A DNA stretch of 35,966 nucleotides from the NCBI GenBank assembly GCA_024421085.1, contig JAHQYN010000024.1, positions 1-35,966 on the forward strand, given 5' to 3'. The notes beneath the pieces were generated by a model. That model was not told the origin of the DNA and searched no databases. It worked only from the letters and a program-made list of their open reading frames with translations. Positions 1 to 16,002 of the stretch are shown in pieces. How positions within the stretch are numbered: the stretch's first letter is position 1; each line of letters opens with the position of its first letter. The position numbers and the translations under genes were made by a program. The stretch is from Acidimicrobiia bacterium (GTDB lineage: Bacteria; Actinomycetota; Acidimicrobiia; Acidimicrobiales; Aldehydirespiratoraceae).

Positions 1-102
1 CTCGCGCTCATCCAAGACGCCCTCAACCACATGCCCCGCAAACTCCACAACTGGAAACCTACACAACACGTCTACACTATGCTCTGTCGCAACCACCGAT
101 AG
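1..102 (+). mobile_element. IS30-family transposase, 3' end only
   Basis: An open frame enters from the left edge and stops at TAG 100-102, giving 33 C-terminal residues. The segment ALNHMPRKLHNWKPTQ matches the usual end of IS30-type transposases, where a short helix is followed by LNxRPRKxLxWxTP. The catalytic DDE residues would lie outside the window. The right terminal inverted repeat should lie in the next few tens of bases, but I cannot define it without the left end. It sits at the outer edge of the defence genes and may mark an island boundary. The family call rests on this one short motif. Confidence 0.5.
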
Positions 103-140
103 AGCTTGCCGATCTTCTGGGCTCGACGGAACTTTTTGAT

Positions 141-452
141 ATGTGTTGGGAGTTTCACCGGAAGGTGATAGAATGCACACGGCCGCGTCTCATACTGTGT
201 ATGGGAAGATGCGCCCAACGCTTCCTTCAAGAAAAGACACACGCTAAAATGCAAATCCAGTGTCTGTCAAGGAGTTGTGACAACTCGTTCTTGGTCGAAG
301 TCTACGAGAACTGCCGTGGTTGCAGGCTGGTCGTACTCAAGCATCCCAGTCGCTGTGATTGGCGGAACGCAAAGTCAGATCCCTCTGAAACTGTCCGCCG
401 CGCCCTGAAAGGCGCCAACAGTCGTTGGTCGTCGCAAGATGTTGCTGTTTGA
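141..452 (+). CDS. 5'-truncated gene, possibly uracil-DNA-glycosylase-like
   Basis: The first ATG of this frame is at 141, but the frame is open back to the window edge and overlaps the transposase end, so the true 5' part is probably missing. The visible 103 residues contain RPRLILCMG, a hydrophobic strand after a short helix, and later LVVLKHPSR followed by a helix with RRAL. This resembles the C-terminal half of the uracil-DNA glycosylase superfamily, in which a conserved HPS segment binds DNA. The catalytic N-terminal half is not present here. Base composition is lower in G+C than the chromosome to the right. It is probably a remnant cut by the IS30-like element; the identity is tentative. 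Confidence 0.35.
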   Translation: MCWEFHRKVIECTRPRLILCMGRCAQRFLQEKTHAKMQIQCLSRSCDNSFLVEVYENCRGCRLVVLKHPSRCDWRNAKSDPSETVRRALKGANSRWSSQDVAV

Positions 453-589: not shown

Positions 590-3500
590 TCAGCGTCCTG
601 CGGGGAAATACAGTTCGGCCCAGTCGGGTCGGGTGCTGAGGTCGTGGCGTAAGGACGGGTCGGCGGGTGGTGGGTCGAGAGCGGCCTCAAACGGCTCGCC
701 GTTAGCGTTCGATTCGGTTATGCGGTCGTAGTTCTCAAGAATCAGACGTTTCGTGCGATACTCACCAAATTGATTTTCGTCATCGCGACGGACGATGGGA
801 AACGAGTCCAAGATGTAGTCCACTTCGTCCCTGTCTATGCCGTACACGTGGAAGAAGGCTGCGTCGAGTTCAGTTCGTATGCTCTCTCGCCGGTCTGGGT
901 CCCAGCGATAGGGATGGGGAGAAATGTCCCATGATGTTTCAATCAGCTCCTTGGCCGCACGCGCTACATGATCCGTGAATTCGCCACTGATCGGCGCAAC
1001 GGGCAGTTGGCGAGTTATGTAGTACTGGAGATTCGTGCCCCCCAATTTCTGACGGCACACGAAGTCGACGACGAAACTAGTCGCGACGGCAGTGAGGAGA
1101 TAGTTCTCATCGGTGAGCGACATGAGGATGTTGTCACCAGCGCCATAGCGCGGGAATAGGGAATAGATCCATGTCCTTACATCCGTTGCCCGGCAGATTT
1201 TTCGCCAACCCCCGAGTAGACCTTGATGATCTTTGATCTGCTCTTCGACATCGGGCATCGGCACCCAGTATCTCGGCATGGCCAGAAAGCAAGGGTCTTG
1301 CTTCTCGGATACCATAACGTCCCTAAAGCCATCCCTCTCAAAGGTTGCCCAGCGATGATCGAAGTGGTGGATCATCTTCGCTTCGTAGAGAGGGAGATAG
1401 CACTCCTCGCCCCTTGTAAAGGTGCTCCCTCGAAGCACCCATTCTTCGGATTCGAGTTGGTCACGGGTACGGAACATGTGGGATGCACTCGACATATGAA
1501 ACATGGTTGACAACGAGACACGCCAGGGATTCTGTTCTGGTGGACCCTCGGCAATGAGCACGGGCACGCGCCGGTAGATACCCTTCGTGATTTCGGCATC
1601 GTGGCGCGTTCGGAAGATTGGGCAGGTGCGTGTGTTGGGGTTTAGAAGCGCAAAATCTTCGGGGGTGAGGGTGAAGCGGCGTTCTGGATCATTGAGATCG
1701 GCAGTGTCGAGCGCAAAAAAGACGAAGTCGACCTCCTCCACAGGACGCTGACGGCCGGAGAGCGTGAGCAGGCAGAACTTGTAGCTGCGGTGCACACCTT
1801 GGAAGATTGCTTTCCGATTCTCAAAATCGAACAAGCTGACGAGGCTGCGCTTCTCGACGACGTCACGGAAAAAGAACTTCGTGGTGTCATCAGTGGCGAT
1901 TCCCGAGGGGACGATCACGCCCAATCGCCCGTTGAGTCCGACCGAGTTTCTCATGCCCTCAGCAAAGACCGAGTACGTATTGACGTCACCACGGCCGCAG
2001 AGCGGGTAGCGGCTTGAGGATCGCAAGAAATGGCTCACGCCATCTGCCTCACGGAGGGCAGCTTCATAACGAACAAACAGTTCTGGGTTGTCTGATTCAA
2101 GAGCTCTGATGAGGCGTTTTCTTGAGGCGGCGTTCGGAGCAGCGGCGATATCCGAATCGTGCTCAGCAAAGAACTCCTTCTCTTGAAGCTTGACCCGCTC
2201 CCACGGAGGATTGCCGAGCACCACGCTGAATCCGCCGCTCCACCCGGCGCGATCAATTTCGGCTGCCCTAAGGTCACTGGGGACACAGAAGACATCTGGG
2301 AAGGCGAGGTGGAAGTGGAGGAAGCGATATCTGTCAGCTAACTCCCTCACACGATCTACGACATCGTCTGGAACGCGAGTGGGATCATCGAGAAGCCGGT
2401 TGATCGTTGCAGTGGTGATCGGAGGCTCCCCAACAGCTTTCTGGCAGACAAAGGCCGCGCACCAAGCATCAGCAGCGAGCCTTGCTCGTGCGGCTTCCTG
2501 AGATCGGTTGAGGTCGCGTAACAGTTTTGCTTTGCGGCTGACATCTTCAACCGTGCTGTCCGGTACAGCGTTGATCTGCGCGATTGCGTCGGCAACCGGC
2601 CTGCTAACGGTCGACACTGATTCCTCGAATAAATCAAGAACAGTTTGACCCTCGCGTTCGCTCTTGTTGCGCTTCCTGAGTTTCGCCACAACTTTCCTGT
2701 CATCACCTCCGAGCGGTTTGAAAGCACTATCGGGGATGCCGTCGGACAGCAGTCGAGGGGTGGTTCCTAGCAGTGCGTTTCCACAGACGATGCGGTGATC
2801 CAAGAAGCTGAGCGGCTTTCCCGGTTCGGTGGCTTCGAGCCAGAGGCTGACCTTGCACAACTCGACGGCCATGGGGTTCACGTCGATCCCATGGAGACAC
2901 CGACCTACGACATCGCGCAATGCACCGCGAACATCTTGCGGCGACGGTTCGATTCCCCCTGCACGGACACTTGCCAAGCGCCGCGCGATGCGGTTGGCAG
3001 CCGCAATGAGGAAGTGACCTGAACCGCAGGCCGGGTCAAGCACTGAAAGTCGCAGGATGGCTTTCTCGGGATCGGTGGAACGAGCGGCTTCGTCTAGCAC
3101 CGGATCGAGTGCAGACTCAAGCAGTTCGTTGATGAGGCTGGTTGGCGTGTAGTAGCTGCCAGTGGTCTTGCGTTCGTTACCGGCGGCATTTTCGAGAGAA
3201 AACCGTCGGGCGTGGACATCGACTTGGGCGTGCAGTTCAAGCAGGCTCTCATAGATTGAGCCAAGCTCCTCCGCACCAAGGTTCCGATAGTCGACGTTTC
3301 GATCAACTCTGCCTTCGACATCGCGGGTAATGGTGAGCTGACGAATGGCTTCGAGGAGGCGGGCATTGTCGATGCTTGCACCCTCCAACGCCGCGACGCT
3401 GTCCGGTGCCCACAAGAAGCTGCCGAGTGGCGAGAGTCCGAGTTTCGGCTCACCTTCGCGCCAAAGAGCCCGCATCGTGACCTGGAGTCCGGCCCACAGA

Positions 3501-4519
3501 TCATCATGAGCCGAACCGCGGCGTCGCCTTGCAAGTCGAACCAGTCGGCCGACGGAGTAGAAGTCGCGGTATCGGCCCCGAGTGACCTCGTCGGTCTCGG
3601 GTGCTAGGAGGAGGTCACGGGCTTCGGCAACGAGCAAGAAGAGGATTCGGTAGACGACGCGCAGCAATTGGCGTTGGAATTCGGAAGTCGAGAGCGTGCC
3701 GTCTCTGATCTGGCTCCTAAGGTCCGAATTGGCATGGTGGTCAAGGAAGCCCTCGCCAAGGCTCTCAATGGCACTTTCGACGCCATCCCGAAGACGGTCA
3801 AGGGCGCGCGTTCCGGTGCTGGCGGCGTGTTGGGTCCATGACTCGAGAAGGCACTTCTCGGGCGGGTCGCCCTCAAAACGGGTGCGGTGGCAGGTAAGCC
3901 ATAGGAGGACGAAGTCGCTGTAGTACTCGCCGTCGAAGATGGCTCGCAGGTCGAACTCAACGTAAGCCTGTCGGGTCAGAGAGGCGTTATCGCGCAACAG
4001 CCGTAGCACTGCCCCGTTGGTGAGCAATGCCCAGAGGTGGTCGTCGCTGCGATTGATGAACTCTTGGACGAGGCCGTGGGGTGAGCTCTTGGCTGCCCCG
4101 GGGATGCCCGGTGTGCGTCGATCAATAGGCACCTTGATCCCGAGAACATGTACCGGCACAGACGGTCCCCACTGGTGAGAAATGGCGTATTCCTTGCCGT
4201 CAATCACCGCGGCACGGGCTTGGGGTATTCCTGCGAAGCCAAGCTCGTCGAGCAGGGGTCGTAACCATCGGTCGCGCGTGAGCGTCGTCGCTGTCTGATC
4301 ACTGTCGGGGAGCAACTCAAGCTGTACCTTGAAATTCGACCATAGCGCGACTAGACGGTTCCAACTTCGTGTGATGTGGTCGTTAAGCCGTTCCCCTGGT
4401 ACGAGTCCGTACGATTCGAAGCTCGTGCCATCGAGGTCTTCCGATCCCCTCGCGATCTCGGTCAAGAGGTCGGATGGAAGTAACCCGCCTACCGACGTAA
4501 CCGTCTTGAAGTCGCTCAC
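590..4519 (-). CDS. drmMI: DrmMI-like Eco57I/PglX-type adenine-N6 DNA methyltransferase
   Basis: A 1309-residue protein expected to methylate adenine in host DNA so that a partner restriction machinery spares it. S-adenosylmethionine motif I, DPACGSGHF, is at residues 495-503. The catalytic motif IV, NPPW, is at 770-773, preceded by GFSVVLG. YYTPTSL at 456-462 is the usual entry to an N6-adenine methylase core. The roughly 450-residue N-terminal region and a long C-terminal region (probable target recognition) match the size of class 1 DISARM and PglX-like methylases. No PD-(D/E)XK nuclease is evident at its N terminus, which argues against a stand-alone type IIG enzyme. The start is GTG at 4519, overlapping the DrmD-like stop by GTGA. 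It is the last gene of the operon. PglX of BREX is the main alternative, but no pglZ or brxC lies nearby. Confidence 0.75.
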   Translation of the reverse strand: MSDFKTVTSVGGLLPSDLLTEIARGSEDLDGTSFESYGLVPGERLNDHITRSWNRLVALWSNFKVQLELLPDSDQTATTLTRDRWLRPLLDELGFAGIPQARAAVIDGKEYAISHQWGPSVPVHVLGIKVPIDRRTPGIPGAAKSSPHGLVQEFINRSDDHLWALLTNGAVLRLLRDNASLTRQAYVEFDLRAIFDGEYYSDFVLLWLTCHRTRFEGDPPEKCLLESWTQHAASTGTRALDRLRDGVESAIESLGEGFLDHHANSDLRSQIRDGTLSTSEFQRQLLRVVYRILFLLVAEARDLLLAPETDEVTRGRYRDFYSVGRLVRLARRRRGSAHDDLWAGLQVTMRALWREGEPKLGLSPLGSFLWAPDSVAALEGASIDNARLLEAIRQLTITRDVEGRVDRNVDYRNLGAEELGSIYESLLELHAQVDVHARRFSLENAAGNERKTTGSYYTPTSLINELLESALDPVLDEAARSTDPEKAILRLSVLDPACGSGHFLIAAANRIARRLASVRAGGIEPSPQDVRGALRDVVGRCLHGIDVNPMAVELCKVSLWLEATEPGKPLSFLDHRIVCGNALLGTTPRLLSDGIPDSAFKPLGGDDRKVVAKLRKRNKSEREGQTVLDLFEESVSTVSRPVADAIAQINAVPDSTVEDVSRKAKLLRDLNRSQEAARARLAADAWCAAFVCQKAVGEPPITTATINRLLDDPTRVPDDVVDRVRELADRYRFLHFHLAFPDVFCVPSDLRAAEIDRAGWSGGFSVVLGNPPWERVKLQEKEFFAEHDSDIAAAPNAASRKRLIRALESDNPELFVRYEAALREADGVSHFLRSSSRYPLCGRGDVNTYSVFAEGMRNSVGLNGRLGVIVPSGIATDDTTKFFFRDVVEKRSLVSLFDFENRKAIFQGVHRSYKFCLLTLSGRQRPVEEVDFVFFALDTADLNDPERRFTLTPEDFALLNPNTRTCPIFRTRHDAEITKGIYRRVPVLIAEGPPEQNPWRVSLSTMFHMSSASHMFRTRDQLESEEWVLRGSTFTRGEECYLPLYEAKMIHHFDHRWATFERDGFRDVMVSEKQDPCFLAMPRYWVPMPDVEEQIKDHQGLLGGWRKICRATDVRTWIYSLFPRYGAGDNILMSLTDENYLLTAVATSFVVDFVCRQKLGGTNLQYYITRQLPVAPISGEFTDHVARAAKELIETSWDISPHPYRWDPDRRESIRTELDAAFFHVYGIDRDEVDYILDSFPIVRRDDENQFGEYRTKRLILENYDRITESNANGEPFEAALDPPPADPSLRHDLSTRPDWAELYFPAGR

Positions 4520-7344
4520 AACGCCAGCTTCGGGAGGTAGATGTATATGCCGAGCACATCTGGTGGCAGTTGGGGCTTGGCCTCAACGCGACCGAGCGTT
4601 CCGCCCCTGCGACCAACTGCTTCGCGTACCTGGGCATGGGCTTTCGCAAGGTTCTCTGCCCGTCGGTGGGCAGCGTCTTCAAGACCGGGCCTCCAGCCGG
4701 ATTCGCCCGCAAGAATCTCGGCTACGAGTTCCCGCTGAACACGTTCATCGATGTTGGCAACCGGCCGAAGTTCCAACAGAGGTTCCGCATCCTCACTGTT
4801 GAGCCATACAGGCTCGCTTGGTTCGCCAGTGAACGCCATTACCACGGCATCTTCGGCAAGCATGGCTGAACGTCTGTAGCGGCTGTCGGCAACGAGACTC
4901 ATCCTGAAGCGACAAAGCAGCAACACGGTTTTCTCCGTGACTTCGTCGGTCTCGATCACTCCAGCCCGAGCCGCAGGCCCCTTGAGCAATGGATCTAAGG
5001 CTTCATCCAGTACGTGAGCGGCAAGGCCGGCAACTATTGGATGGGTCCGAGAAAGGTGGGTCACACCGCTACGGACCGGAAGTTCAAATGCCGTCTGCAA
5101 GCTGGTTTCACCAGCAACCAGGCCAACCGAATCGCGCAATGACAGCGGAGTCTCTCCGAACTCAAGGGTGGTGTCGGTGCTCCCCACAACCACACCGCCG
5201 TATGCCTGAGTGGTGGTTCGGACGAATGTCTCAACGTCGGTACCCGACCCGACTGCGGCCTGGACGACAGCAAGCTCGGCAGCAACCTCATCGGGGTCAA
5301 TGGTGTGCTGGGCGAAGATAGAGCGTGATTGACGCTCCCGTTCTTCGGCCGCATCCCATTCGAGGTGGAGCTGTTCGGTGGTCGGTCTCAAGAACTCGTC
5401 GAAGCCGGGCAACCGCTCCTCGATGGCGACATTGCTCCGCATTAGCAGCGTCTCCGCGAGAGCTTCAATGAGTTCACCTGTAGTGCCGGGCACCGGGATG
5501 GACACACCCAGTGCTCTTCGAATCTTGACGTGCTTGCGAAGCAGCACTTCCAGCACAGTCTCGTCGATCTGGTTGTCTGCTCCGTAGTAGGTGATTACGC
5601 GAACTTCGGGTTCTGGCTGCCCGAATCGGTCGACGCGACCCTCTCGTTGTTCGAGCCGGGTCGGGTTCCAGGGCAAGTCATAGTGCAATACGGCGGAGAA
5701 ATGGTCCTGGAGGTTGATGCCCTCGCTCAGACAGTCGGTTGCTACAAGCACTCTGCGCTTTTGTTTGCCCAGCGCGGTTACTCTTGCCTCACGCTCGGCT
5801 GGTGGGATGCGGCCAGTAACCGCTTCGACTTCTACACCGAGTCGGCTGGGAAGCAAGTCACGAAGGTGGTCAGCCACGTACTCGGCAGTCTCGATGAACC
5901 GGCAAAACACGATGGGGTCGAATCCGTCAGTGATGAGCTGTCTTACGAGTTTCGCGGCTTCGACTAGTTTCCGGTCGTCGTCCCCCGAAAGAGCATCGGC
6001 AGCCTTCGCGAGTTCGCGGAGCTTGCGACTGACGGGGTTGTCCGGGTTGTCTTCACTATCACTGCCGGGCACCACGTCGACGCCCTCTTCGGCCTCTTCC
6101 AGGTCGAGTACGGTCTGGCGACCGATCTCATCGGCTTCATCAACATTGGTGGATTCGGCAGTGGAAGCTCTGGTTCGCATCGTCGCCGCTGCCGCAGCCG
6201 GACTCGAGGCCAATGCCCTCAGCAGCCCCAGTGCCGACCACCACCGAACCCGCTGGCGATGGCCATCGGTTGTTCGAACTGTCTCACGAGCGAAATGGAG
6301 AACCTCGCCGAAGACCTGCCGGTAGGCAGCCGAAAGCCCGTAGGTAGCCTCGGTCTCCTTGCGCTGTGGAAACTTGGTGTCCACTTGCAAGTAGCTGTGT
6401 ATATCGCCGCGTCGGCGTTGTACCAGGTAGCGGGCCAACTCTTCGCGCTGTTGGCGGTGTTGTTCGCCGGCCAGGCTGTCGGGCAAGTGCTGGAACTTGG
6501 GATCAAGCAGCGACAGCAAACTGCGGAATGATCCCTCCTTACCAGAGTGTGGGGTTGCGGTGACGAGGATGAGGTGACGATCTGGGTCGGATTCCGATAG
6601 GTCTCGCACAAGCTGAAACCGCTGATGCCGGACGCCTGAACCCTCCGACGCGTCGGCACAGGCATGGGCTTCGTCAACAATCACCAGCTCTGGGCATGCG
6701 CGAATGAAGTCATCTCGCCTGCGGTCAGACTTGATGAAGTCGATCGAGACCACCGTGTGGTCATAGATGTCGAAAATTGACTGATCGTGAGCCAAGCCTC
6801 GTTCCAACCGAGCGGCCGTGGAGGGGAGAACGAGTTCGGCAGCAATGTGGAATTTGTCGGCGAGCTCGGTCTGCCACTGCTCGGCGAGATGTGGTGGACA
6901 GAGGACGCAAAGCCGCCGAGCATCACCTTGCTCAATGAGTTCCTTGGCCACCAGAGCCGATTCAATGGTCTTGCCGATTCCCACATCGTCCGCGATCAGC
7001 AGACGCACTGGATCGAGCTTGAGGGCCATCAGAAGTGGCACAAGCTGATAGGGACGGGGCTCCACCGCGATCTTGGCCACCGAGCGGAATGGGCCTGCAC
7101 TTGAGCGGAAGCCGAGCCTCAACGCATCACGAAGCATGCGAGCCGACCGGTAGTCTCCGAGTTGATCGGGGTTGGGCAGATCGAAGGTAGCCGGCTCGAC
7201 CGGTTCGAGCGCAGTGAGGATACCGGTCACCTCTTCATCGGTGCCACCCAGCGGGCGGACCATAAGCAACTCGTCGGTGGATTCAGGCAACACAACCCAC
7301 TCGCGATTGCGGGCGTTCACGAGAGCGCCGGTTGCGAACGTCAC
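4516..7344 (-). CDS. drmD: DrmD-like SNF2-family helicase
   Basis: A 942-residue superfamily 2 ATPase. Walker A is DDVGIGKT at 119-126, the Walker B DEAH box is at 224-227, and motif III TATPHSG is at 262-268. Motif V is ATDCLSEGINLQ at 535-546 and motif VI is QREGRVDRFGQ at 566-576. The arginine-rich motif VI and DVGIGKT loop are of the SNF2/RapA type. The N-terminal stretch (REWVVLP, then VRPLGG and a second acidic strand) resembles the DrmD family of class 1 DISARM. An acidic low-complexity linker at about 395-437 separates the two RecA lobes. Such proteins are thought to translocate on DNA. The start is GTG at 7344, overlapping the upstream helicase stop by 4 bases, so translation is probably coupled. 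RapA/HepA-like helicases of other methylase-linked defence systems are the alternative. Confidence 0.75.
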   Translation of the reverse strand: MTFATGALVNARNREWVVLPESTDELLMVRPLGGTDEEVTGILTALEPVEPATFDLPNPDQLGDYRSARMLRDALRLGFRSSAGPFRSVAKIAVEPRPYQLVPLLMALKLDPVRLLIADDVGIGKTIESALVAKELIEQGDARRLCVLCPPHLAEQWQTELADKFHIAAELVLPSTAARLERGLAHDQSIFDIYDHTVVSIDFIKSDRRRDDFIRACPELVIVDEAHACADASEGSGVRHQRFQLVRDLSESDPDRHLILVTATPHSGKEGSFRSLLSLLDPKFQHLPDSLAGEQHRQQREELARYLVQRRRGDIHSYLQVDTKFPQRKETEATYGLSAAYRQVFGEVLHFARETVRTTDGHRQRVRWWSALGLLRALASSPAAAAATMRTRASTAESTNVDEADEIGRQTVLDLEEAEEGVDVVPGSDSEDNPDNPVSRKLRELAKAADALSGDDDRKLVEAAKLVRQLITDGFDPIVFCRFIETAEYVADHLRDLLPSRLGVEVEAVTGRIPPAEREARVTALGKQKRRVLVATDCLSEGINLQDHFSAVLHYDLPWNPTRLEQREGRVDRFGQPEPEVRVITYYGADNQIDETVLEVLLRKHVKIRRALGVSIPVPGTTGELIEALAETLLMRSNVAIEERLPGFDEFLRPTTEQLHLEWDAAEERERQSRSIFAQHTIDPDEVAAELAVVQAAVGSGTDVETFVRTTTQAYGGVVVGSTDTTLEFGETPLSLRDSVGLVAGETSLQTAFELPVRSGVTHLSRTHPIVAGLAAHVLDEALDPLLKGPAARAGVIETDEVTEKTVLLLCRFRMSLVADSRYRRSAMLAEDAVVMAFTGEPSEPVWLNSEDAEPLLELRPVANIDERVQRELVAEILAGESGWRPGLEDAAHRRAENLAKAHAQVREAVGRRGGTLGRVEAKPQLPPDVLGIYIYLPKLAL

Positions 7345-10300
7345 AGGGTGCCTTCCCCAAAGACCCGCTCGTTCGACTCAATGATTTGTTTCCAGTCATC
7401 CTGGTAACCGAGGCGAACAACAAGGAGGCCGAGCCGTCTGAGCGCAGCTTCCTGCTCCTCATCGCGTGCTTGCCGTCTAGCATCATCGTGATGCGGGCCG
7501 TCGATGAAGATCACCGTTCTCTGCGCCGAGTAGTAGAAGTCGACTCGGGTGTTGGCCTGCTTGATGTAGACCTGACTGCGGTCGGGCAAGCGAAAGCCAT
7601 GGGTCCGCAAGTGATTGAGGAACCTCCGCTCAAGCGACGACTCCACACCTGAGTCGAGTGCGGCTTCAACCTCCTTGGGTGGTACCAACTTCGCCTTCCG
7701 AAGCTGACCAAGCACCGGTTCGGCCGCGCGTCTGTCGAGCAGTTGATGCTCCGTCTGATTGCGGTACGAGAGCAGGCAATCATAGCAGGCCGCCTCGCAC
7801 TTCTCGCCGCTGGGAAACGGCAGTTCTTCACCATTGCTGGGATCAATGTGACAACGGCGCAAGGCCTCCTCCGCGACACGACGCCACAAGGTCGGTTCAT
7901 CGACCAACCGGCGCAGCGCCCCCGCGCCTCCCTCAGCAGACTCGTAGAAGAGCAACTGGTTGCGCGAGTCGACACTGGGCAGCGGCTCAGCAGCGACCTC
8001 GTCCTCTTCGAGTTGGAACACAACCTGGAACGCGACCTTCAGAGCGGCTTGGAGGGAGGACATTTCTTCGATGGACATGTCCTGGACTGGGGTGACGAGA
8101 AGCACATTTCGGCTGTCTTCCACAAAGGGCACGACTCGTCTTGTCCGGTTGGACTGCGGGTCGTCGTCGTCTTCGGCCTCGGCGTCATTGGCGCTGCTCC
8201 AGTAACCCCGCTCGATGTCGAGAACAAAGCCGAGCTGCCCTCTATTCTGGCGACGGCGCCAACCGAGATTGATGCGCCAGATGGTCGCAGTGTCTCCGTA
8301 GGCGAGATGGAGCAGATCCTCGCCGTCGGGGCCTCGCACAATCGCCTCATCAACTGAGAGTTTTCCTTCACGCTCAGCAAAGTAGATGCCCGAGATGATC
8401 TCGTAGCCCTTGCGTTGACGCTCTTCCTCGTCCGAAGTGATCCGATCACGTCGCACTGTCGACACATTCTGGAGCCGGAACAAGCTCTTGAGCGGGGGTG
8501 GGAGCTCATTATCGCAGAGCACGCATACATCTGGGTGCACCCCGCCGGTGAGTGGGTGAAGGTAGCCGCATTGAGCGCACTGTTTGGCTTCCTGGGTCGC
8601 AATGCTCCCGTCATCAAGTTCCAAGTCCCCAACTGGGAGTATCACTCGATTGATTCGATAGCGGGCGCCCTCGTGGTACACCAGGCTCTGCGGCCCGAAC
8701 TCGTTGATGGCCAAGAAGCGCGGGCGCTGCAAGAACTCAGGATTCGAGAACCTGCTCTTGCGTCCAGGAATGAACGCGGACAAAGGAAGGCGTGGAAACG
8801 AATAGCCCGGCAAGAAACCCTCTGCAGCAAAGTACCGGTAGGTGTAGAAATCTGACTGGTTGCGGCTGTCGCTCTCGGCCCGAAGGAGGTCCAGTTGGTT
8901 CTCGGCTTCTCGTCGCAGTCGATCCGCCGAGCGCTTCTGCTCCTTCGTGCTACTGGCCGACTGCTTTATTTTCGATTGCTCCCGCGCCTGCTGCATCGCT
9001 GCCTTGTACAGGGAACGCCAACGGTTGAGCGCTTCACCGAAGCGATCCTCCATTGAGGCGAGCGCATCGTCCAACCAGCCATCGTGCCACCACGGTGCCT
9101 TTGACAATCGTGGGCCGAGATCGGCCAGCACCTTCTCGGCCCTTGCCTTTGCCTTCGCCCGGACCGTGGCGTCGGCGAAGTGTTTCGAAATGTCCCCAAA
9201 GATGGGCGGTTCGTCGAGTTCGTCGGCAAGATCGAGGACATCGGTCATCGACGCGCCCAGATCGATTCCGCTCTCCGCCAACCAGATCGCGTGGACGTGC
9301 GCGCGGAGCAGATCTTGGTTGGCGAGCTCGAGACGTGGTGCCTCCACCTGTCCAGCCACCATCTGCTCAGGGCGCTGGAAGTAATGCTGGTCATGGGAGT
9401 TGCCGGCGGTGCAATACGTAAACACCAAGGCCGGCTGGCCACTACGACCGGCACGCCCCGACCGCTGCGCATAGTTGGCAGGCGTCGGTGGCACGTTGCG
9501 CATGTTCACCACGTTCAGCTGAGAAATATCCACGCCCAACTCCATGGTGGGTGAGCAATACAGCACCGGCAGCTCGGCTGTGCGAAATCGGTCTTCGCGT
9601 TCGAGCCGATCCTCGTAGGGAACTTGTGCCGTGTGCTCTCGTGCCTCAACCCCTCTCAAGCTCTCCCCCATCTTCGTGTACAAATCCATGAAGAAGTGAT
9701 TTGTCCGTCGCTGGCCCGGAGCATGGGGCATGCGGATGTGGTCCTGATAGGGCTCGTCGCCGTCTCCGGCCACCCAACGCATCGCTGCCGCAGGCAACTG
9801 GTACTTGGTGACACCTTGACGGTCTTCTCCCACCGCAGCCAACAGGCCATAGATGCGGAGCCGCTCGAAGAGCTGTCGGATAATCTCGTCGGTGTCGGCG
9901 AGTGTGAGGCGCTGGTCTTCTCCGAGAGCATTGGGGCGCCGAAGAAACTGCCCGTAACCGCCACGGGCGGAGACAAAGACCGTGTCACGAACGTCGCCCC
10001 GAGTACGGCCCCGGGGAACGACCACAGGAGCAACCCGCAAGCGGTCATCCTCGATCGCCCAACCACCCCTGAGCGCCTGGTCGGAGCGACGTTTGATCTG
10101 CGCCTGCTCGGCCGCCTCCGTGACATCGACCCTCACCGCAACTTCCCGCCGGATCATGTCCAACAGCACTCTCAAGACAAAGGCCCGAGTCTGTGGCACC
10201 ACCTTGTCAAGAACCGGATGGCAACTCGACCACTCAGACTCATCAGCAGCGAGATCATCGAGCGATGGATACTCGATCTTGAGCAGGCCGGTCTGCTCAA

Positions 10301-12482
10301 GATTGGGCTGGGTCAGACGCCAACCACGCGCGAGGTCCCAGTATACGCGATACACAAGCACACTCTCGAGTGCGCTTTCTGTCTGCTGTCTGGCCAAGCC
10401 CTTCAATTCCGGTTCAAACGCGTAGCTCTTGAACGGCAGATCAAGTGCATCAAAAACCCTCCGCGGCAGTTCATCGAAGCTCAGGCCCGCCGGCCCCGCC
10501 GCCTTGGCTGCTTGATACAGGGCAGCTCGAAGCAACGTGACTTGCACAAAATCGTTGAAGTGGCCTGCCTGGAGGGATGCGTCCTGGCGATTGTCAGTGA
10601 AAGACAGCAGCTTCTTGGCAATGTCTGGAAGATCGGCTGAGTCACGCAAGTTCTTGACCGTGGCGAGCGACATGATGGTGGTCGCGGTGGAACGCCCATC
10701 AGAACCGAGAGTGCTCAACCGGCTGAAGTCCCGGCCCAACCTGCCCGCGTACGACACTCCGCAGGAAAGGCAGAATCGAAACGGTGTCGGAACCCACCAC
10801 GCTGCCACACCCGTTTCCCCAATTTCGCCCGAAGGACTCACCACGGAGAGTCTGGGAATGTGTTCGCGGTGATTCTTCCGAAGCCGACCCTCATCGTCGA
10901 GCCAGTCCAGTGGGAGCTTCTGCAGCATGGTTGCGGGGTCTTCGGGCCAGGGTTCACTGGTGCTCAGATAGATGAAGCCTGCGACTCCCTCGTCGTCATC
11001 GTCTTGGGCATCGCCAAGGTCTCTAGGCACCAGAACCGGCCCGGTTGAACGATCTTGGCGGCGCACCACGTAGTAGTCCTGCCCACACTCACGGCAGAAC
11101 GCGAGTGGCAACAACACCTTCGAACGATTCGTGCCGGGCACAAAACGTTGTCGGGTGAGCGTGATGTATCGATCATCGGGGGCCTCGGGAGGTGCGTAAA
11201 CCGTGTCACCACGGCTCAAGAACTGATGCAGCCGGAAGGCGAAGGCAGGGAAACCACTGTCGTTTTCGATCGAATACCCCGCAAGCAGATGGGCCTTGAT
11301 CGCTTCGACGCATTCGTCAGGGGGAAGACCGGTCAGGGTGCTCAGCCGCGCCGCTGCGCCTGTAGGGCCTTCGATGGCCAGCGGTTGGGCGCGAACCAGC
11401 CTGCCTTCCTCTTCGACAAGCCCGAATGTTGACTCGATCCAACTTGAGAGCGGACTGGCGATGAACTGCTCGTAGTCGTTCGGCGGCGTTTGTCTCTCCG
11501 TTACACACTCAGCGAGAGCAGCGACGAATGCCGGATCGTTGTCGCTCTGCTCGACTGTTACCCGTTCAAGCGTCTCGCCGATCACGCGTTCGGGACCCAC
11601 GTCCGTGCCGAAGATTGTGCTGGCCACCTCGGCGATCTTGGCTTTGCGCTCCTCGGGGTCGCCCTCGCTGGACATGGTCGCCGACGTGCCCACACACAAG
11701 AGGTCTGATGCACCCGACGCTTCTCGGAGCCTGCGCACCAGCAGTGAGACGTCAGCGCCCTGACGACCCCGATACGTGTGCAGCTCGTCCAGCACCAGGT
11801 AGCGCAGGTCCGAGAAGCGCCGAACTAGCCGTCTATCCGTGTAACGCGTGAGGATCAACTCCAACATCACATAGTTGGTGAGAATGACATCAGGAGGGTT
11901 CTGAAGGATCGCCTCGCGGGCATCGCGATCATCTTGACCGGTGTAGCGGGCGAAGCTCACCGGTCTGGCGCCACCCCAGGAGCCGTGATCGAGGAACTTG
12001 GCGAGTTCGTCGGCCTGGCTGTTGGCGAGGGCGTTCATCGGGTAGACCACGACAGCCTTCACACCTTCGCCCGTGCCGCTGCGTAGCACATGATCAACAA
12101 TGGGTACGATGTAGCTCAGGCTCTTGCCCGAACCTGTTCCTGTCGTGAGGACATAGTTGTCGCCGGCCTTCGCTGCACGGATTGCGTCCACCTGATGCTG
12201 GTGCAGTGCCATCTGCTTGCCCACCGCATCATCAGCAGACTTGTCGAGGCGAAAGATCTCCCGACACCGCTCGTGCAGAATCCTCAAGTTCACGAACTCG
12301 TCGACCGTCCCGCCACTCTTGAACGCCGGGTTCAGGCCAATCTGAGGCGCCGGCCAGAGCCTGCCCCGCTCAAACGCCTCATCGACATGCCCGTGGATAC
12401 GGTCATCCTTGATGGCTAGGAAACTGGTCGCGTACCGGCGGTAGCTCTCAATCAGTTCATCCCTGAGTCTGAAAACGTCCAT
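7341..12482 (-). CDS. DEAD/DEAH helicase fused to DUF1998-type zinc domain and PD-(D/E)XK-like nuclease
   Basis: A 1713-residue first gene of the defence operon. Walker A TGTGSGKS is at about 114-121, DELH at 232-235, SAT at 267-269 and motif VI QRSGRAGRSGQ near 1005. Zinc-type cysteine pairs occur near 466 (CREC), 574 (CLSC) and 1300-1325 (CAQC and CVLC). A four-cysteine block CEAACYDCLLSYRNQ near 1560 is the hallmark of DUF1998/MZB domains. The last 100 residues contain RVDF near 1643 and VIFIDGPHHDD near 1658, resembling Vsr/DUF559 nucleases. ATG 12482 is preferred over GTG 12515: the protein then begins MDVFRLRDEL as relatives do, a purine-rich AGGA precedes it, and the longer form would start inside a hairpin. 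It combines features that DISARM places in DrmA (helicase), DrmB (DUF1998) and DrmC (nuclease). The domain calls are firm except the nuclease, which is probable. Confidence 0.75.
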   Translation of the reverse strand: MDVFRLRDELIESYRRYATSFLAIKDDRIHGHVDEAFERGRLWPAPQIGLNPAFKSGGTVDEFVNLRILHERCREIFRLDKSADDAVGKQMALHQHQVDAIRAAKAGDNYVLTTGTGSGKSLSYIVPIVDHVLRSGTGEGVKAVVVYPMNALANSQADELAKFLDHGSWGGARPVSFARYTGQDDRDAREAILQNPPDVILTNYVMLELILTRYTDRRLVRRFSDLRYLVLDELHTYRGRQGADVSLLVRRLREASGASDLLCVGTSATMSSEGDPEERKAKIAEVASTIFGTDVGPERVIGETLERVTVEQSDNDPAFVAALAECVTERQTPPNDYEQFIASPLSSWIESTFGLVEEEGRLVRAQPLAIEGPTGAAARLSTLTGLPPDECVEAIKAHLLAGYSIENDSGFPAFAFRLHQFLSRGDTVYAPPEAPDDRYITLTRQRFVPGTNRSKVLLPLAFCRECGQDYYVVRRQDRSTGPVLVPRDLGDAQDDDDEGVAGFIYLSTSEPWPEDPATMLQKLPLDWLDDEGRLRKNHREHIPRLSVVSPSGEIGETGVAAWWVPTPFRFCLSCGVSYAGRLGRDFSRLSTLGSDGRSTATTIMSLATVKNLRDSADLPDIAKKLLSFTDNRQDASLQAGHFNDFVQVTLLRAALYQAAKAAGPAGLSFDELPRRVFDALDLPFKSYAFEPELKGLARQQTESALESVLVYRVYWDLARGWRLTQPNLEQTGLLKIEYPSLDDLAADESEWSSCHPVLDKVVPQTRAFVLRVLLDMIRREVAVRVDVTEAAEQAQIKRRSDQALRGGWAIEDDRLRVAPVVVPRGRTRGDVRDTVFVSARGGYGQFLRRPNALGEDQRLTLADTDEIIRQLFERLRIYGLLAAVGEDRQGVTKYQLPAAAMRWVAGDGDEPYQDHIRMPHAPGQRRTNHFFMDLYTKMGESLRGVEAREHTAQVPYEDRLEREDRFRTAELPVLYCSPTMELGVDISQLNVVNMRNVPPTPANYAQRSGRAGRSGQPALVFTYCTAGNSHDQHYFQRPEQMVAGQVEAPRLELANQDLLRAHVHAIWLAESGIDLGASMTDVLDLADELDEPPIFGDISKHFADATVRAKAKARAEKVLADLGPRLSKAPWWHDGWLDDALASMEDRFGEALNRWRSLYKAAMQQAREQSKIKQSASSTKEQKRSADRLRREAENQLDLLRAESDSRNQSDFYTYRYFAAEGFLPGYSFPRLPLSAFIPGRKSRFSNPEFLQRPRFLAINEFGPQSLVYHEGARYRINRVILPVGDLELDDGSIATQEAKQCAQCGYLHPLTGGVHPDVCVLCDNELPPPLKSLFRLQNVSTVRRDRITSDEEERQRKGYEIISGIYFAEREGKLSVDEAIVRGPDGEDLLHLAYGDTATIWRINLGWRRRQNRGQLGFVLDIERGYWSSANDAEAEDDDDPQSNRTRRVVPFVEDSRNVLLVTPVQDMSIEEMSSLQAALKVAFQVVFQLEEDEVAAEPLPSVDSRNQLLFYESAEGGAGALRRLVDEPTLWRRVAEEALRRCHIDPSNGEELPFPSGEKCEAACYDCLLSYRNQTEHQLLDRRAAEPVLGQLRKAKLVPPKEVEAALDSGVESSLERRFLNHLRTHGFRLPDRSQVYIKQANTRVDFYYSAQRTVIFIDGPHHDDARRQARDEEQEAALRRLGLLVVRLGYQDDWKQIIESNERVFGEGTL

Positions 12483-12510
12483 ATCCTGCCCTGCCTCAAC
12501 TGCCAGGCGT

Positions 12511-12527
12511 GTCACTCGCTGAGTGAC
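12511..12527 (-). promoter_or_regulatory. 17-bp hyphenated palindrome upstream of the defence operon
   Basis: GTCACTC and GAGTGAC form a perfect 7-bp inverted repeat around a 3-base spacer, 29 bases upstream of the helicase ATG. It lies between the zinc-ribbon gene (stop at 12565) and the defence operon on the same strand. No T-run follows on the minus strand, so an operator or a leader hairpin is as likely as a terminator for the zinc-ribbon gene. Confidence 0.45.
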
Positions 12528-12564
12528 TTCGTAGCAGAAACCAACCGCGCACGCAGGAATGCGC

Positions 12565-12753
12565 CTAGTCGTCTTTGAGGGCGACGGCGTTGGGGGTGAC
12601 GTTCATCTTCGGTTCGTACTCGGGGGCCGTCACCTCCACGGCTTCGCCGCCGAGGCTGGCCCTGAGCTGCTCGCGGCATGATGCGCAGGGGCCGTAGTAC
12701 TCGACTTCGCACTCTGTGGCGCAGCGCGGACAGGTGATCGACAGGATTTCCAT
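12565..12753 (-). CDS. small zinc-ribbon protein, 62 aa
   Basis: Begins at ATG 12753 and encodes MEILSITCPRC, then a spacer and GPCASC: two CxxC pairs about 15 residues apart, a rubredoxin-like knuckle pattern that should bind one zinc. The remaining 35 residues are polar with no transmembrane segment. It is divergent from the FAD oxidoreductase gene (100 bp between the starts) and upstream of the defence operon on the same strand. Its G+C content resembles the chromosomal side, so I take it as the first gene outside the island. I do not recognise a function. The regular cysteine spacing is the only strong evidence that the frame is real. Confidence 0.6.
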   Translation of the reverse strand: MEILSITCPRCATECEVEYYGPCASCREQLRASLGGEAVEVTAPEYEPKMNVTPNAVALKDD

Positions 12754-12796
12754 GAGTGCAGTGTGGCGCGTCGGGGGCGCAAGCCAGCTGACCCGA

Positions 12797-12846
12797 TCTG
12801 AGAATGTCGCGATTTCGGATATGATCCCGCATCGCGCAGGAGGGGG
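12797..12846 (+). promoter_or_regulatory. promoter and ribosome binding site of the FAD oxidoreductase gene
   Basis: A good -10 hexamer TATGAT lies at 12820-12825, with only a weak -35 (TCTGAG, 12797-12802, 17-base spacing). The start site would be near 12832. The strong Shine-Dalgarno AGGAGG at 12838-12843 is 10 bases before ATG 12854 and decides that start over upstream in-frame ATGs. Confidence 0.5.
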
Positions 12847-12853
12847 CAGTCAT

Positions 12854-14305
12854 ATGGACGGTGACCAGAGCCGCGCGTCGGAGGCGCAGGTTGTGGTGAT
12901 CGGCGCGGGTCCCGCGGGGCTGACCGCCGCCTACCAACTCGGCAAGCACGGTCGCAGCGCGCTCATCTTGGAAGCAGACGATGTGGTGGGCGGAATCTCG
13001 CGCACGGCCAAGCGCGACGGCTGGCGATTCGATATCGGCGGCCACCGCTTCTTCACCAAAGTCGCCCCGGTGTCGGACCTCTGGCACGAGATCCTCCCCG
13101 CGGAGGACTTCCTGTTGCGCCCCCGCATGAGCCGGATCTTCTATCAGGGCAAGTTCTACGACTACCCCCTCAAGGCCGTCAACGCACTCAAGAATCTGGG
13201 GATCGTCGAAGCGGTCCGCTGCGTCATGTCCTACTTCTGGGTCAAGATTCGGCCGCCGCAGGACCAGACGTCCTTCGAGGGATACGTCGCCGCCAAGTTC
13301 GGTTGGCGGCTCTACAAGACCTTCTTCAAGACCTACACCGAGAAAGTCTGGGGCGTGCCGGCCGATGAGCTCGAGGCGGACTGGGCCGCGCAGCGAATCA
13401 AGAACCTGAACCTGATCAACGCGATCACCGGCGCGATCATTCCCAGACGGAACTCCAAGGGCATCACCAGCCTCATCGAGGAGTTCGAGTATCCGCGCCA
13501 CGGCCCCGGAATGATGTGGGAAAGATGCACCGAGTTGGTCACCGAGCAGGGCAGCACAATCGAGTTCAACTCGAAAGTCACCAAGATCCGCCACGCTGAC
13601 GGTGTTGCCACCGAGGTCGTCACGACCGGCCCAAAGGGTCAACGTGCATACGCATGCGACGCGGTCATCTCCTCGATGCCGATTCCCCGGCTCGTCCAGG
13701 CCATGTACCCCCCGGCTTCGCCCGAGGCGCTGCGCGCCGCCGCCCAACTCAAGTTCCGTGACTTCCTGACAGTCGCCCTGGTGGTCCCCGCCGAAGACGG
13801 CTTCCCCGACAACTGGATCTACATCCACTCCCCCGAAGTCTCGGTCGGCCGGGTGCAGAACTTCGGGTCGTGGTCGCCGGACATGATCCCGGTGCAGGGC
13901 AAGACATGTCTGGGCCTCGAATTCTTCGTCAACGAGGGCGACGAACTCTGGGAGACCGACGACGACGACCTCGTGGCTCTGGGGACCAGAGAGATGGCGA
14001 CCCTCGGCCTGCTCGACCCCGCCCGAGTCGAGCGGGGGTATGTGGTGCGGATGCCCAAGGCGTACCCGATGTACGACGCTGCCTACAAGGCGAACGTCGA
14101 CACCCTGCGCGCTTGGCTCAGCGACGCTGCCCGCAACGTTCACCCGGTCGGTCGCAACGGGATGCACCGCTACAACAACCAGGACCATTCCATGTACACG
14201 GCGATGCTCACCGTCGAGAACCTCGTCAACGGCACCAGCCACGATGTCTGGGAGGTAAACGTCGAGGCGGACTACCACGAGGAACGCAAGGCGGGCGGCC
14301 ACTGA
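12854..14305 (+). CDS. FAD-dependent oxidoreductase, UDP-galactopyranose-mutase/amine-oxidase-like
   Basis: A 483-residue cytosolic flavoprotein. The dinucleotide-binding loop VVVIGAGPAGLTAAYQL is near residues 14-30, followed by the acidic strand end and GGISRTA. FDIGGHRFF near 60 is the second FAD contact typical of this group. The later segments YNNQDHSMYTAM and VNGTSHDVWEVN form the C-terminal FAD-binding region. This family (COG1232-like) includes protoporphyrinogen oxidases and sugar-nucleotide mutase relatives. In actinobacterial cell-wall loci members sit beside polyprenol-phosphate glycosyltransferases, as here, where a family 2 enzyme starts 39 bases downstream. A role in modifying a lipid-linked or nucleotide sugar is inferred from context. 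The substrate cannot be read from sequence. Confidence 0.8.
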   Translation: MDGDQSRASEAQVVVIGAGPAGLTAAYQLGKHGRSALILEADDVVGGISRTAKRDGWRFDIGGHRFFTKVAPVSDLWHEILPAEDFLLRPRMSRIFYQGKFYDYPLKAVNALKNLGIVEAVRCVMSYFWVKIRPPQDQTSFEGYVAAKFGWRLYKTFFKTYTEKVWGVPADELEADWAAQRIKNLNLINAITGAIIPRRNSKGITSLIEEFEYPRHGPGMMWERCTELVTEQGSTIEFNSKVTKIRHADGVATEVVTTGPKGQRAYACDAVISSMPIPRLVQAMYPPASPEALRAAAQLKFRDFLTVALVVPAEDGFPDNWIYIHSPEVSVGRVQNFGSWSPDMIPVQGKTCLGLEFFVNEGDELWETDDDDLVALGTREMATLGLLDPARVERGYVVRMPKAYPMYDAAYKANVDTLRAWLSDAARNVHPVGRNGMHRYNNQDHSMYTAMLTVENLVNGTSHDVWEVNVEADYHEERKAGGH

Positions 14306-14358
14306 TGGCCGCGTCGCGCTGCGAGCCGTTCGACGAGCCGTTCGATGAGCGGGTCTGA
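14305..14358 (+). CDS. 17-codon bridging reading frame
   Basis: ATG 14305 overlaps the oxidoreductase stop as TGATG, and the frame runs to TGA 14356-14358, 14 bases into the glycosyltransferase gene. The product would be MAASRCEPFDEPFDERV. Its second half comes from a 12-bp tandem repeat. It could couple translation across the gap, but it may equally be chance; there are no homologs I recognise. Confidence 0.2.
   Translation: MAASRCEPFDEPFDERV
14323..14346 (+). repeat. 12-bp tandem repeat, two units
   Basis: GAGCCGTTCGAC is followed directly by GAGCCGTTCGAT and then GAGCGG. The second unit's C-to-T difference supplies the ATG start (14345) of the downstream glycosyltransferase. Confidence 0.7.
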
Positions 14359-15073
14359 GCGCGAACGGACGATCGTCGTCGTCCCGGCCTACAACGAGCA
14401 GGAGGCGCTGCCCGCGGTGCTCGCCCAACTCGCCGCCACGGTGGGCGACCTCGACGTGATCGTGGTTGATGACGGTTCGAGCGATTCCACGGCGACGGTG
14501 GCGCGCGATGCCGGGGTGCGATGCATCGTGCTGCCCTTCAACCTCGGCATCGGCGGGGCGCTGCGGGCCGGCTACCGCTACGCGGTTGACCACGGTTATC
14601 AGCGGGCCGTGCAGTTCGACGCCGACGGTCAGCATCGCGCCGATCAGATCGGGGTGCTGACCGCAGCGCTCGATTCGGGCGCCGACCTGGCGGTCGGCTC
14701 CCGCTTCCTGGAGGGGGACTACGACGTCGGGCGCAGCCGGGCGGCGGCGATGTGGGTGCTGAGGGTGGGCGTTCGAGTGATCACCGGGCAGTCCTTCAGC
14801 GACACGTCGTCGGGGTTCCGGGCAATTCAGGGAGACCTGCTGGAAGTCTTCGCCCGGGAGTACCCCGTCAACTACATGGACTCCGTGGAGACCCTCGTCG
14901 AGGCCTGTCGCCGTGGGTACACCGTCGTTGAGGTTCCAGCGTTGATGAGCCAACGCACCGGCGGCGTACCGTCGCAACGTCCGTTGAGGCTGGTCTACCA
15001 CTACGCCCGCCTGATAGTTGCCCTCATAGGCTCCCCCCGCCGCAGAACCAAACCCACCCGCGCGCCCCGTTAG
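14345..15073 (+). CDS. family 2 glycosyltransferase, polyprenol-phosphate mannosyltransferase-like
   Basis: A 242-residue protein with a GT-A fold. VVVPAYNEQEALP opens the nucleotide-binding half, VIVVDDGSSDST carries the first acidic cluster, and FDADGQH is the metal-binding DXD. SDTSSGFRAI follows, as in dolichol- or polyprenol-phosphate sugar transferases. There is no C-terminal membrane segment, so it is the soluble short form that works at the inner face of the membrane. It probably makes a lipid-linked sugar donor for membrane glycosyltransferases such as the arabinofuranosyltransferase downstream; that link is inference. ATG 14345 is the first start in this frame and gives the expected N terminus. 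The gene converges on the next glycosyltransferase with 23 bases between stops. Confidence 0.85.
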   Translation: MSGSERERTIVVVPAYNEQEALPAVLAQLAATVGDLDVIVVDDGSSDSTATVARDAGVRCIVLPFNLGIGGALRAGYRYAVDHGYQRAVQFDADGQHRADQIGVLTAALDSGADLAVGSRFLEGDYDVGRSRAAAMWVLRVGVRVITGQSFSDTSSGFRAIQGDLLEVFAREYPVNYMDSVETLVEACRRGYTVVEVPALMSQRTGGVPSQRPLRLVYHYARLIVALIGSPRRRTKPTRAPR

Positions 15074-15096
15074 TTCGGCTCCAGCTGCGCCCGGCG

Positions 15097-16002
15097 CTAG
15101 CAACGAGTTCTTCCGTGGGGGTGTTCTTTGGAGCTGATCCGGGCCGGTGGGGGGCCGTAGCGGCCGCGGAGATGGTCCCAGATCGCCAACAGCCGTCCGC
15201 GAATCGACCAGTGCAGCCCCCGCGCCGGTGGGTGAACGACTCCCACCGGGATCTGGACCAGCGCCACGGCTATACGAAACAGCGAGTTGGTGACACCGAA
15301 GTGTTCACGAAGCATCAACAGCGTGTTGCGCAGTTGCAGGTAGGCGACCCGTTCGACCGAGGAGCTCATGCCGGGGTTGCGGACCTCGGCTCCCCGGACC
15401 ACCCCGCACAACCAACCCGCTCTGGCGGCACGAATACCCAACTCGGCCTCTTCGCAGTAGGCGAAGTAGCGTTCGTCGAACAGACCGACCTCCAACAGGA
15501 AGCTCCTCCGGCACATCATCAGCGTTCCGTGCGGATAGTCGGAGGGGTCGAATCCCCGGGTCGCTGTCGGTGCCGCGTCGATCGAGCCGAGGAACGGCTG
15601 GATGATCGGACGTGCGTTGTCTCCGACGTCCGCGCTCATCAGCCCGACCCGCGGCTTGTCGGCAACGGCCGCCAGCATCTTCTCGATCGTGTCCGGGTTG
15701 GGCACCGCATCATGGGGTGCGAGCGCCACCCACTGCCCGGTTCCGCGTCGCAGGAAACGTCTCATACCGACGTTGGCCCCGGGCCCGAACCCGAGGTTGC
15801 GGCCGGTGATGATCAGTTCGGCTTCGCCCACCAGGTCGGTGAGCGCTCCGGCAGTCGAGGCTTCGCTGCCGTTGTCGACGACTGTCACCTGCGTGGGAAC
15901 CGTCTGCGACCTGAAAGTCTCGACGGTGCGTCCTATCTGCTCAGCACGGTTGCGGTGAACCACCACAACCGTCACCGGCTCGGTGTCGGGCGCCCCAGTC
16001 AT
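15097..16002 (-). CDS. family 2 glycosyltransferase, rhamnosyltransferase-like
   Basis: A 301-residue GT-A enzyme of the COG1216 type. VTVVVVHRNR begins the fold, VTVVDNGSE is the donor-binding acidic turn, and GRNLGFGPGANVGM is the conserved GN-GFG-A-N segment of this group. PHDAVPNPD replaces the more usual LNPD/DXD segment. FDERYFAYCEEAELGIRA is the catalytic ED-like region. It probably transfers a deoxy-sugar or hexose to an envelope glycan. ATG 16002 is chosen because upstream sequence in the same frame (back to 16251) is arginine-rich, lacks family similarity and would overlap the divergent family 4 gene. The two divergent starts are 59 bases apart and must share a compact promoter region. 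Confidence 0.8.
   Translation of the reverse strand: MTGAPDTEPVTVVVVHRNRAEQIGRTVETFRSQTVPTQVTVVDNGSEASTAGALTDLVGEAELIITGRNLGFGPGANVGMRRFLRRGTGQWVALAPHDAVPNPDTIEKMLAAVADKPRVGLMSADVGDNARPIIQPFLGSIDAAPTATRGFDPSDYPHGTLMMCRRSFLLEVGLFDERYFAYCEEAELGIRAARAGWLCGVVRGAEVRNPGMSSSVERVAYLQLRNTLLMLREHFGVTNSLFRIAVALVQIPVGVVHPPARGLHWSIRGRLLAIWDHLRGRYGPPPARISSKEHPHGRTRC

Follow-up and report, generated by a model that had tools for sequence, protein, structure and literature searches.

ARMADA is an antiviral system type of bacteria that was already named in a 2025 preprint, where Type I is defined by a gene for a YprA-like helicase, followed by genes for a BrxHII-like helicase and a PglX-like methylase (Bell et al. 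2025, PMC12458937). According to that description, the Type I YprA protein ends in a Vsr-type nuclease predicted to be active, a single module is inserted into its OB region (one extra Cys4 cluster in Type I versus an additional CxxC in Type II), and armD is assigned to Type II, in which it follows armC (PMC12458937). ARMADA and Druantia were placed in one branch, and a single protein with the plan helicase-OB-CON-DUF1998 was regarded as the usual state, DISARM being the branch where it is split (PMC12458937). The phage tests in Bell et al. concerned the four-gene Type II only: in E. coli, ARMADA II gives direct protection that does not involve death of the cell, all four genes are needed, and defense is lost in Walker mutants of ArmA and ArmC and in NPPW mutants of ArmB (PMC12458937). 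No phage test of a Type I system was found in the literature searched. As for the related systems, DruE uses 3' single-strand overhangs for loading and cleaves long DNA (PMC13192584), and DISARM DrmAB responds to the structure of DNA, not to its sequence, and also senses whether it is methylated (PMC9142583).

Considering gene content, gene order, sequence, and fold together, the locus analyzed here can be assigned to ARMADA Type I as a complete armC-armA-armB operon with a probability of about 0.93. The initial annotation had allowed that the set might match an already named system, and it does; the locus adds one more copy of ARMADA rather than a new kind of system. The window (the whole stretch of DNA analyzed, 35,966 bases) is a complete contig of a genome of 3.5 Mb in 241 contigs. 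The three-gene operon first marked at 590-12482 was confirmed as three minus-strand open reading frames (7341-12515, 4516-7344, and 590-4519), in the order armC-armA-armB and with successive overlaps of 4 bases. The first, armC (7341-12482), encodes a YprA-family helicase-nuclease of 1,713 amino acids (aa) from the ATG at 12482, as initially read, or of 1,724 aa from an alternative GTG at 12515. It is followed by armA (4516-7344), which encodes an SNF2/RapA-like (BrxHII-like) helicase of 942 aa, and by armB (590-4519), which encodes a PglX-like, adenine-type DNA methylase of 1,309 aa with the motifs DPACGSGHF (residues 495 to 503) and NPPW (770 to 773). With three clean overlapping genes, this copy of the operon is intact and is one among hundreds.

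The flanks had been described as chromosomal or insertion sequence (IS) DNA. The upstream flank is chromosomal, holding a cell-wall arabinan/glycosyltransferase cluster with AftD, and no clear IS was seen in the part of the flanks scanned. A minus-strand open reading frame at 12512-15103, which overlaps the start of armC, was rejected as an operon gene, having no family match in PADLOC or Pfam, and was taken as the shadow of genuine plus-strand glycan genes. Because the window is the whole contig, only 589 bases lie beyond the end of armB, which is usually the terminal gene of the operon in the loci of relatives. A plus-strand open frame of 149 aa (window positions 3-452) neighbors the armB terminus and enters the window at the contig edge.

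Pfam assigned DEAD/DEAH, Helicase_C, MZB (DUF1998), and DUF559/Vsr-like C-terminal domains to the armC product, SNF2 and Helicase_C to the armA product, and an Eco57I/N6 methylase to the armB product, in agreement with the earlier reading of a helicase, a DUF1998-type zinc block, and a C-terminal nuclease-like domain in one protein. Within armC (all coordinates on the minus strand), the RecA1 domain spans residues 55 to 303 (11574-12320) and contains GTGSGKS (115 to 121) and DELH (232 to 235). The gap between RecA1 and RecA2 is a large insert, in which a helical segment directly after RecA1 (residues 304 to 410; 11253-11573) is followed by a beta-rich segment with two CxxC pairs (C463/C466 and C571/C574; 10761-11096) and then by further helices. 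The helical character of residues 304 to 410 comes from an AlphaFold2 model, and this segment lies where ARMADA and Druantia have a BrxA-like domain, for which it is a candidate; the list from the N-terminal fold search was filled by helicase cores. RecA2 (Helicase_C; 9438-9665) includes the invariant QRSGRAGR motif region and is followed in the model by a long helical finger; a further listed segment of armC lies at 8874-9029. The OB-CON-DUF1998 (MZB) module occupies residues 1228 to 1595 (7698-8801), with MZB itself at 7773-8054, and its OB region holds one extra Cys4 cluster (C1302, C1305, C1320, and C1323). The CxxC pairs at 463, 571, 1302, and 1320 are invariant in all 76 relatives aligned, as are the Walker A/B residues of ArmC (76/76); those of ArmA are likewise invariant (73/73, with one T-to-S change), and NPPW of ArmB is kept in 43/43. 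The ArmB alignment gave no match among solved structures at 1e-5.

AlphaFold2 models, built with 46 and 53 homologues (mean pLDDT of 87.7 and 83.6), were compared with known folds. Residues 1 to 1071 of ArmC resemble the helicase core of MrfA (Z of 27.4; 432 residues at 4.1 Å), and residues 1228 to 1595 resemble the OB-CON-DUF1998 part of MrfA (Z of 12.3) and DrmB (Z of 9.6). The C-terminal domain (residues 1613 to 1707; 7362-7646) resembles the Vsr endonuclease 1cw0 (Z of 9.3; 2.4 Å over 91 residues; 23% identity), placing it as a predicted Vsr-type nuclease of the PD-(D/E)xK superfamily. Its predicted nuclease residues E1618 (74/76), D1648 (74/76), and D1661 (73/76) are kept, and E1618 and D1648 align by sequence with E25 and D51 of Vsr. 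The Vsr histidines are partly kept, D1661 occupying the place of the first, so that catalysis by this domain is not certain.

These features agree with those of ARMADA Type I: the gene trio in the order C-A-B, the C-terminal Vsr-type nuclease, and zinc modules made of the beta-barrel CxxC pairs in the RecA2 insert and one module in the OB region. The window helicase also falls on the ARMADA/Druantia side in PADLOC, scoring 220 to 323 bits with DruE models, at most 55 with DrmA, and at most 75 with DpdJ. The phage-tested ARMADA II locus of E. coli ATCC 8739 (PMC12458937) was used as the yardstick; its ArmC scored 348 bits with DruE3 and 49 with the best DrmA model, compared with 323 and 55 for the window ArmC and 2,179 for a true DruE3. 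The window operon has no UvrD gene and has the order C-A-B rather than the A-B-C-D order with armD that marks Type II. In the helicase tree, 26 Type I rows, which were collected by their similarity to the window, with the published Type I reference WP_108720193.1 left out, formed one group (support of 99) apart from 8 Type II rows and from the Druantia-like rows. The same quick tree joined Type II with Druantia (support of 94), with very long outgroup branches, and no inference was drawn from this join. Two further YprA-type helicases of 1,826 and 1,980 aa (L155:730-10734 and L144:423-6365) formed their own clade outside the ARMADA I, ARMADA II, and Druantia-like rows, the former preceded by genes for a HerA-type helicase and a DNA methylase and the latter with an S24 peptidase domain at its end.

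The initial annotation had proposed a compact class 1 DISARM, with drmA, drmB, and drmC fused in one protein and drmD and drmMI beside it, and this is very unlikely. The DrmMI-like methylase and DrmD-like SNF2 helicase on which it drew were recovered by PADLOC, the methylase having DrmMI as its best match (215 bits) and the SNF2 helicase matching DrmD (287 bits). However, the phage-tested ARMADA system also resembles DrmD and DrmMI (331 and 191 bits), so these two markers, being common to ARMADA, do not single out DISARM. The DUF1998 part resembles DrmB, as given above, but the helicase is DruE-like rather than DrmA-like (323 versus 55 bits) and the nuclease is of the Vsr rather than the phospholipase D (PLD) type, which argues against a condensation of drmA, drmB, and drmC. 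No stand-alone drmA, drmB, or drmC is present within the operon, as had been noted, and none of the three genes encodes a PLD protein; drmC was reported to be non-essential for DISARM (PMC9142583). What survives of the DISARM reading is the different nuclease and a kinship with class 1 DISARM through the methylase and the SNF2 helicase; the locus itself belongs to ARMADA Type I.

An equally slight chance attaches to a Druantia variant, in which the large helicase would be DruE and the other two proteins accessory. The best PADLOC matches of the helicase are indeed DruE models, and the shared branch of ARMADA and Druantia (PMC12458937) fits such a reading, but the DruE matches are partial and weak beside the true DruE3 (323 versus 2,179 bits), and no DruH, DruM, DruF, or DruG was found in the operon. 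In the tree, moreover, the helicase groups with armA/armB-bearing loci rather than with Druantia-like ones, and it co-occurs strictly with armA and armB (counts below). The chain of PDB entry 9tu7 that gives the best match to the window profile aligns with the true DruE3 over its full length and is therefore Druantia, not ARMADA. Two more DruE-like YprA helicases occur in the same genome, on contig C112 (L007:7007-15395) and contig C9 (L008:51-4139); the former is preceded by a gene of 1,120 aa without any PADLOC match, and this gene pair is likely Druantia III-like.

A Dpd-type (7-deazapurine) system is less credible still: the PADLOC model PDLC02853 ("DpdE") covers the whole SNF2 helicase (4516-7344; 827 bits), but other DpdE models reach at most 146 bits, no dpdA or 7-deazaguanine genes are in the operon, and no dpd synthesis genes were seen among the annotated plasmid neighborhoods of related loci. 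The model PDLC02853 was apparently derived from a protein of the ArmA type; its DpdE label is probably incorrect and would lead to spurious assignments to Dpd. More generally, PADLOC-DB 2.0.0 (2023) would scatter an ARMADA Type I operon into DrmMI, DpdE, and DruE matches, and such operons can thus easily be mistaken for incomplete forms of DISARM, Dpd, or Druantia.

The ARMADA Type I trio recurs widely. In a sample of genomes from the same phylum, 42 of 396 had an armC match at an E value of 1e-20; among 20 of these loci, chosen for long or contig-end ArmC matches, 19 had armA next to armC and 18 had armB, with a contig end and a truncated gene accounting for the misses. When one genome was scanned for each species, at least 589 relatives were obtained, and among the best 80 of these, armA was present in 57/58 and armB in 50/50 of the loci with enough DNA, consistent with a conserved three-gene set of a putative anti-phage type. 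These 80 relatives came from Actinomycetota, Chloroflexota, Planctomycetota, Deinococcota, Acidobacteriota, Pseudomonadota, and others. Finding the same genes in the same order in distant phyla indicates that the association is above chance. The three-gene loci keep C-A-B on one strand in all cases but one (L095, with armA and armB on the opposite strand). Plasmids of Nocardioides, Rhodococcus, Roseomonas, and Deinococcus also carry the operon. Nocardioides sp. JS614 has it flanked on one side by an McrBC pair and on the other by a genuine DISARM, in which drmA and drmB are separate genes; this locus displays DISARM and ARMADA Type I side by side. In the Type I operon on plasmid MP1 of the laboratory strain Deinococcus radiodurans R1, the methylase annotation is divided over two open reading frames (L061:19946-23497), so this copy may be broken.

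The nearest relative, the metagenome-assembled genome (MAG) Acidimicrobiia bacterium SB0675_bin_33, aligns with the window at 597-12482 only (78.5% DNA identity over 11,900 bases), the alignment stopping at both operon ends, including after armB. Such confinement to the operon shows that the moving or persisting unit consists of exactly these three genes. When open reading frames were clustered across the flanks of relatives (53 downstream, 70 upstream), no conserved fourth gene emerged. The commonest neighbor is a GmrSD/DUF262-like restriction gene, found at only 12 loci (e.g., L114, L064, and L120); in L120, one such gene (5670-7577) is placed within the operon itself, separating armC from armA. 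Genes for an ArmD-like helicase of the UvrD/GajB type occur between armC and armA in five Type I loci (L044:9652-12081, L074:6928-8973, L089:6814-9027, L107:15520-17547, and L108:7613-9694), four of which form one sub-clade of the helicase tree (support of 100), with L044 placed elsewhere.

By analogy with its relatives, a mechanism can be sketched for the window operon that we hold to be slightly better than an even bet. ArmB would methylate adenines in host DNA, and ArmC, a YprA/DruE-like protein with a DUF1998 canopy, would load onto phage DNA that is unmodified or bears single strands, translocate, and then nick or cut it with the C-terminal Vsr domain. ArmA, as an SNF2/RapA-like translocase, may aid target sensing or clear proteins from DNA, or remodel or deliver DNA, and protection would be direct rather than by cell suicide, as in Type II. 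Type I may nevertheless work differently, because armD, which is needed in Type II, is absent here. A more tentative proposal, to which we give somewhat less than even odds, is that Type I needs nothing beyond its three genes for defense, and hence no armD, with one helicase-nuclease chain that senses and cuts under the guard of ArmB methylation. If true, its mechanism would differ from that of the four-gene Type II. Testing Type I would reveal whether the armD on which Type II depends is an add-on.

Taken against the known systems, the window operon shares with Druantia III (DruE and DruH) a single-protein YprA helicase with a C-terminal nuclease, whereas DruE of that system has PLD domains and the partner DruH and works without a methylase or an SNF2 helicase. 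With class 1 DISARM (DrmD, DrmMI, DrmA, DrmB, and DrmC), it shares the SNF2 helicase, the PglX-like methylase, and, distantly, the helicase and DUF1998 module; in DISARM, however, the last two are in two genes and the nuclease is a PLD protein, in contrast to the one gene and Vsr nuclease of the window. ARMADA Type II (E. coli NCTC 12900 and ATCC 8739) has the same domain plan, with 24% identity in ArmA, 23% in ArmB, and a homologous ArmC, but differs in its gene order (A-B-C-D), its longer ArmC (2,113 aa), and its armD, a RelE-UvrD fusion that is essential for defense and has no counterpart in the window operon. ARMADA Type I agrees in gene content and order, in the Druantia-side YprA helicase with its C-terminal Vsr nuclease, in the one extra zinc module of the OB region, and in its high abundance in Actinomycetota; nothing notable sets the window copy apart from it, and its nearest kin is found in an Acidimicrobiia MAG.
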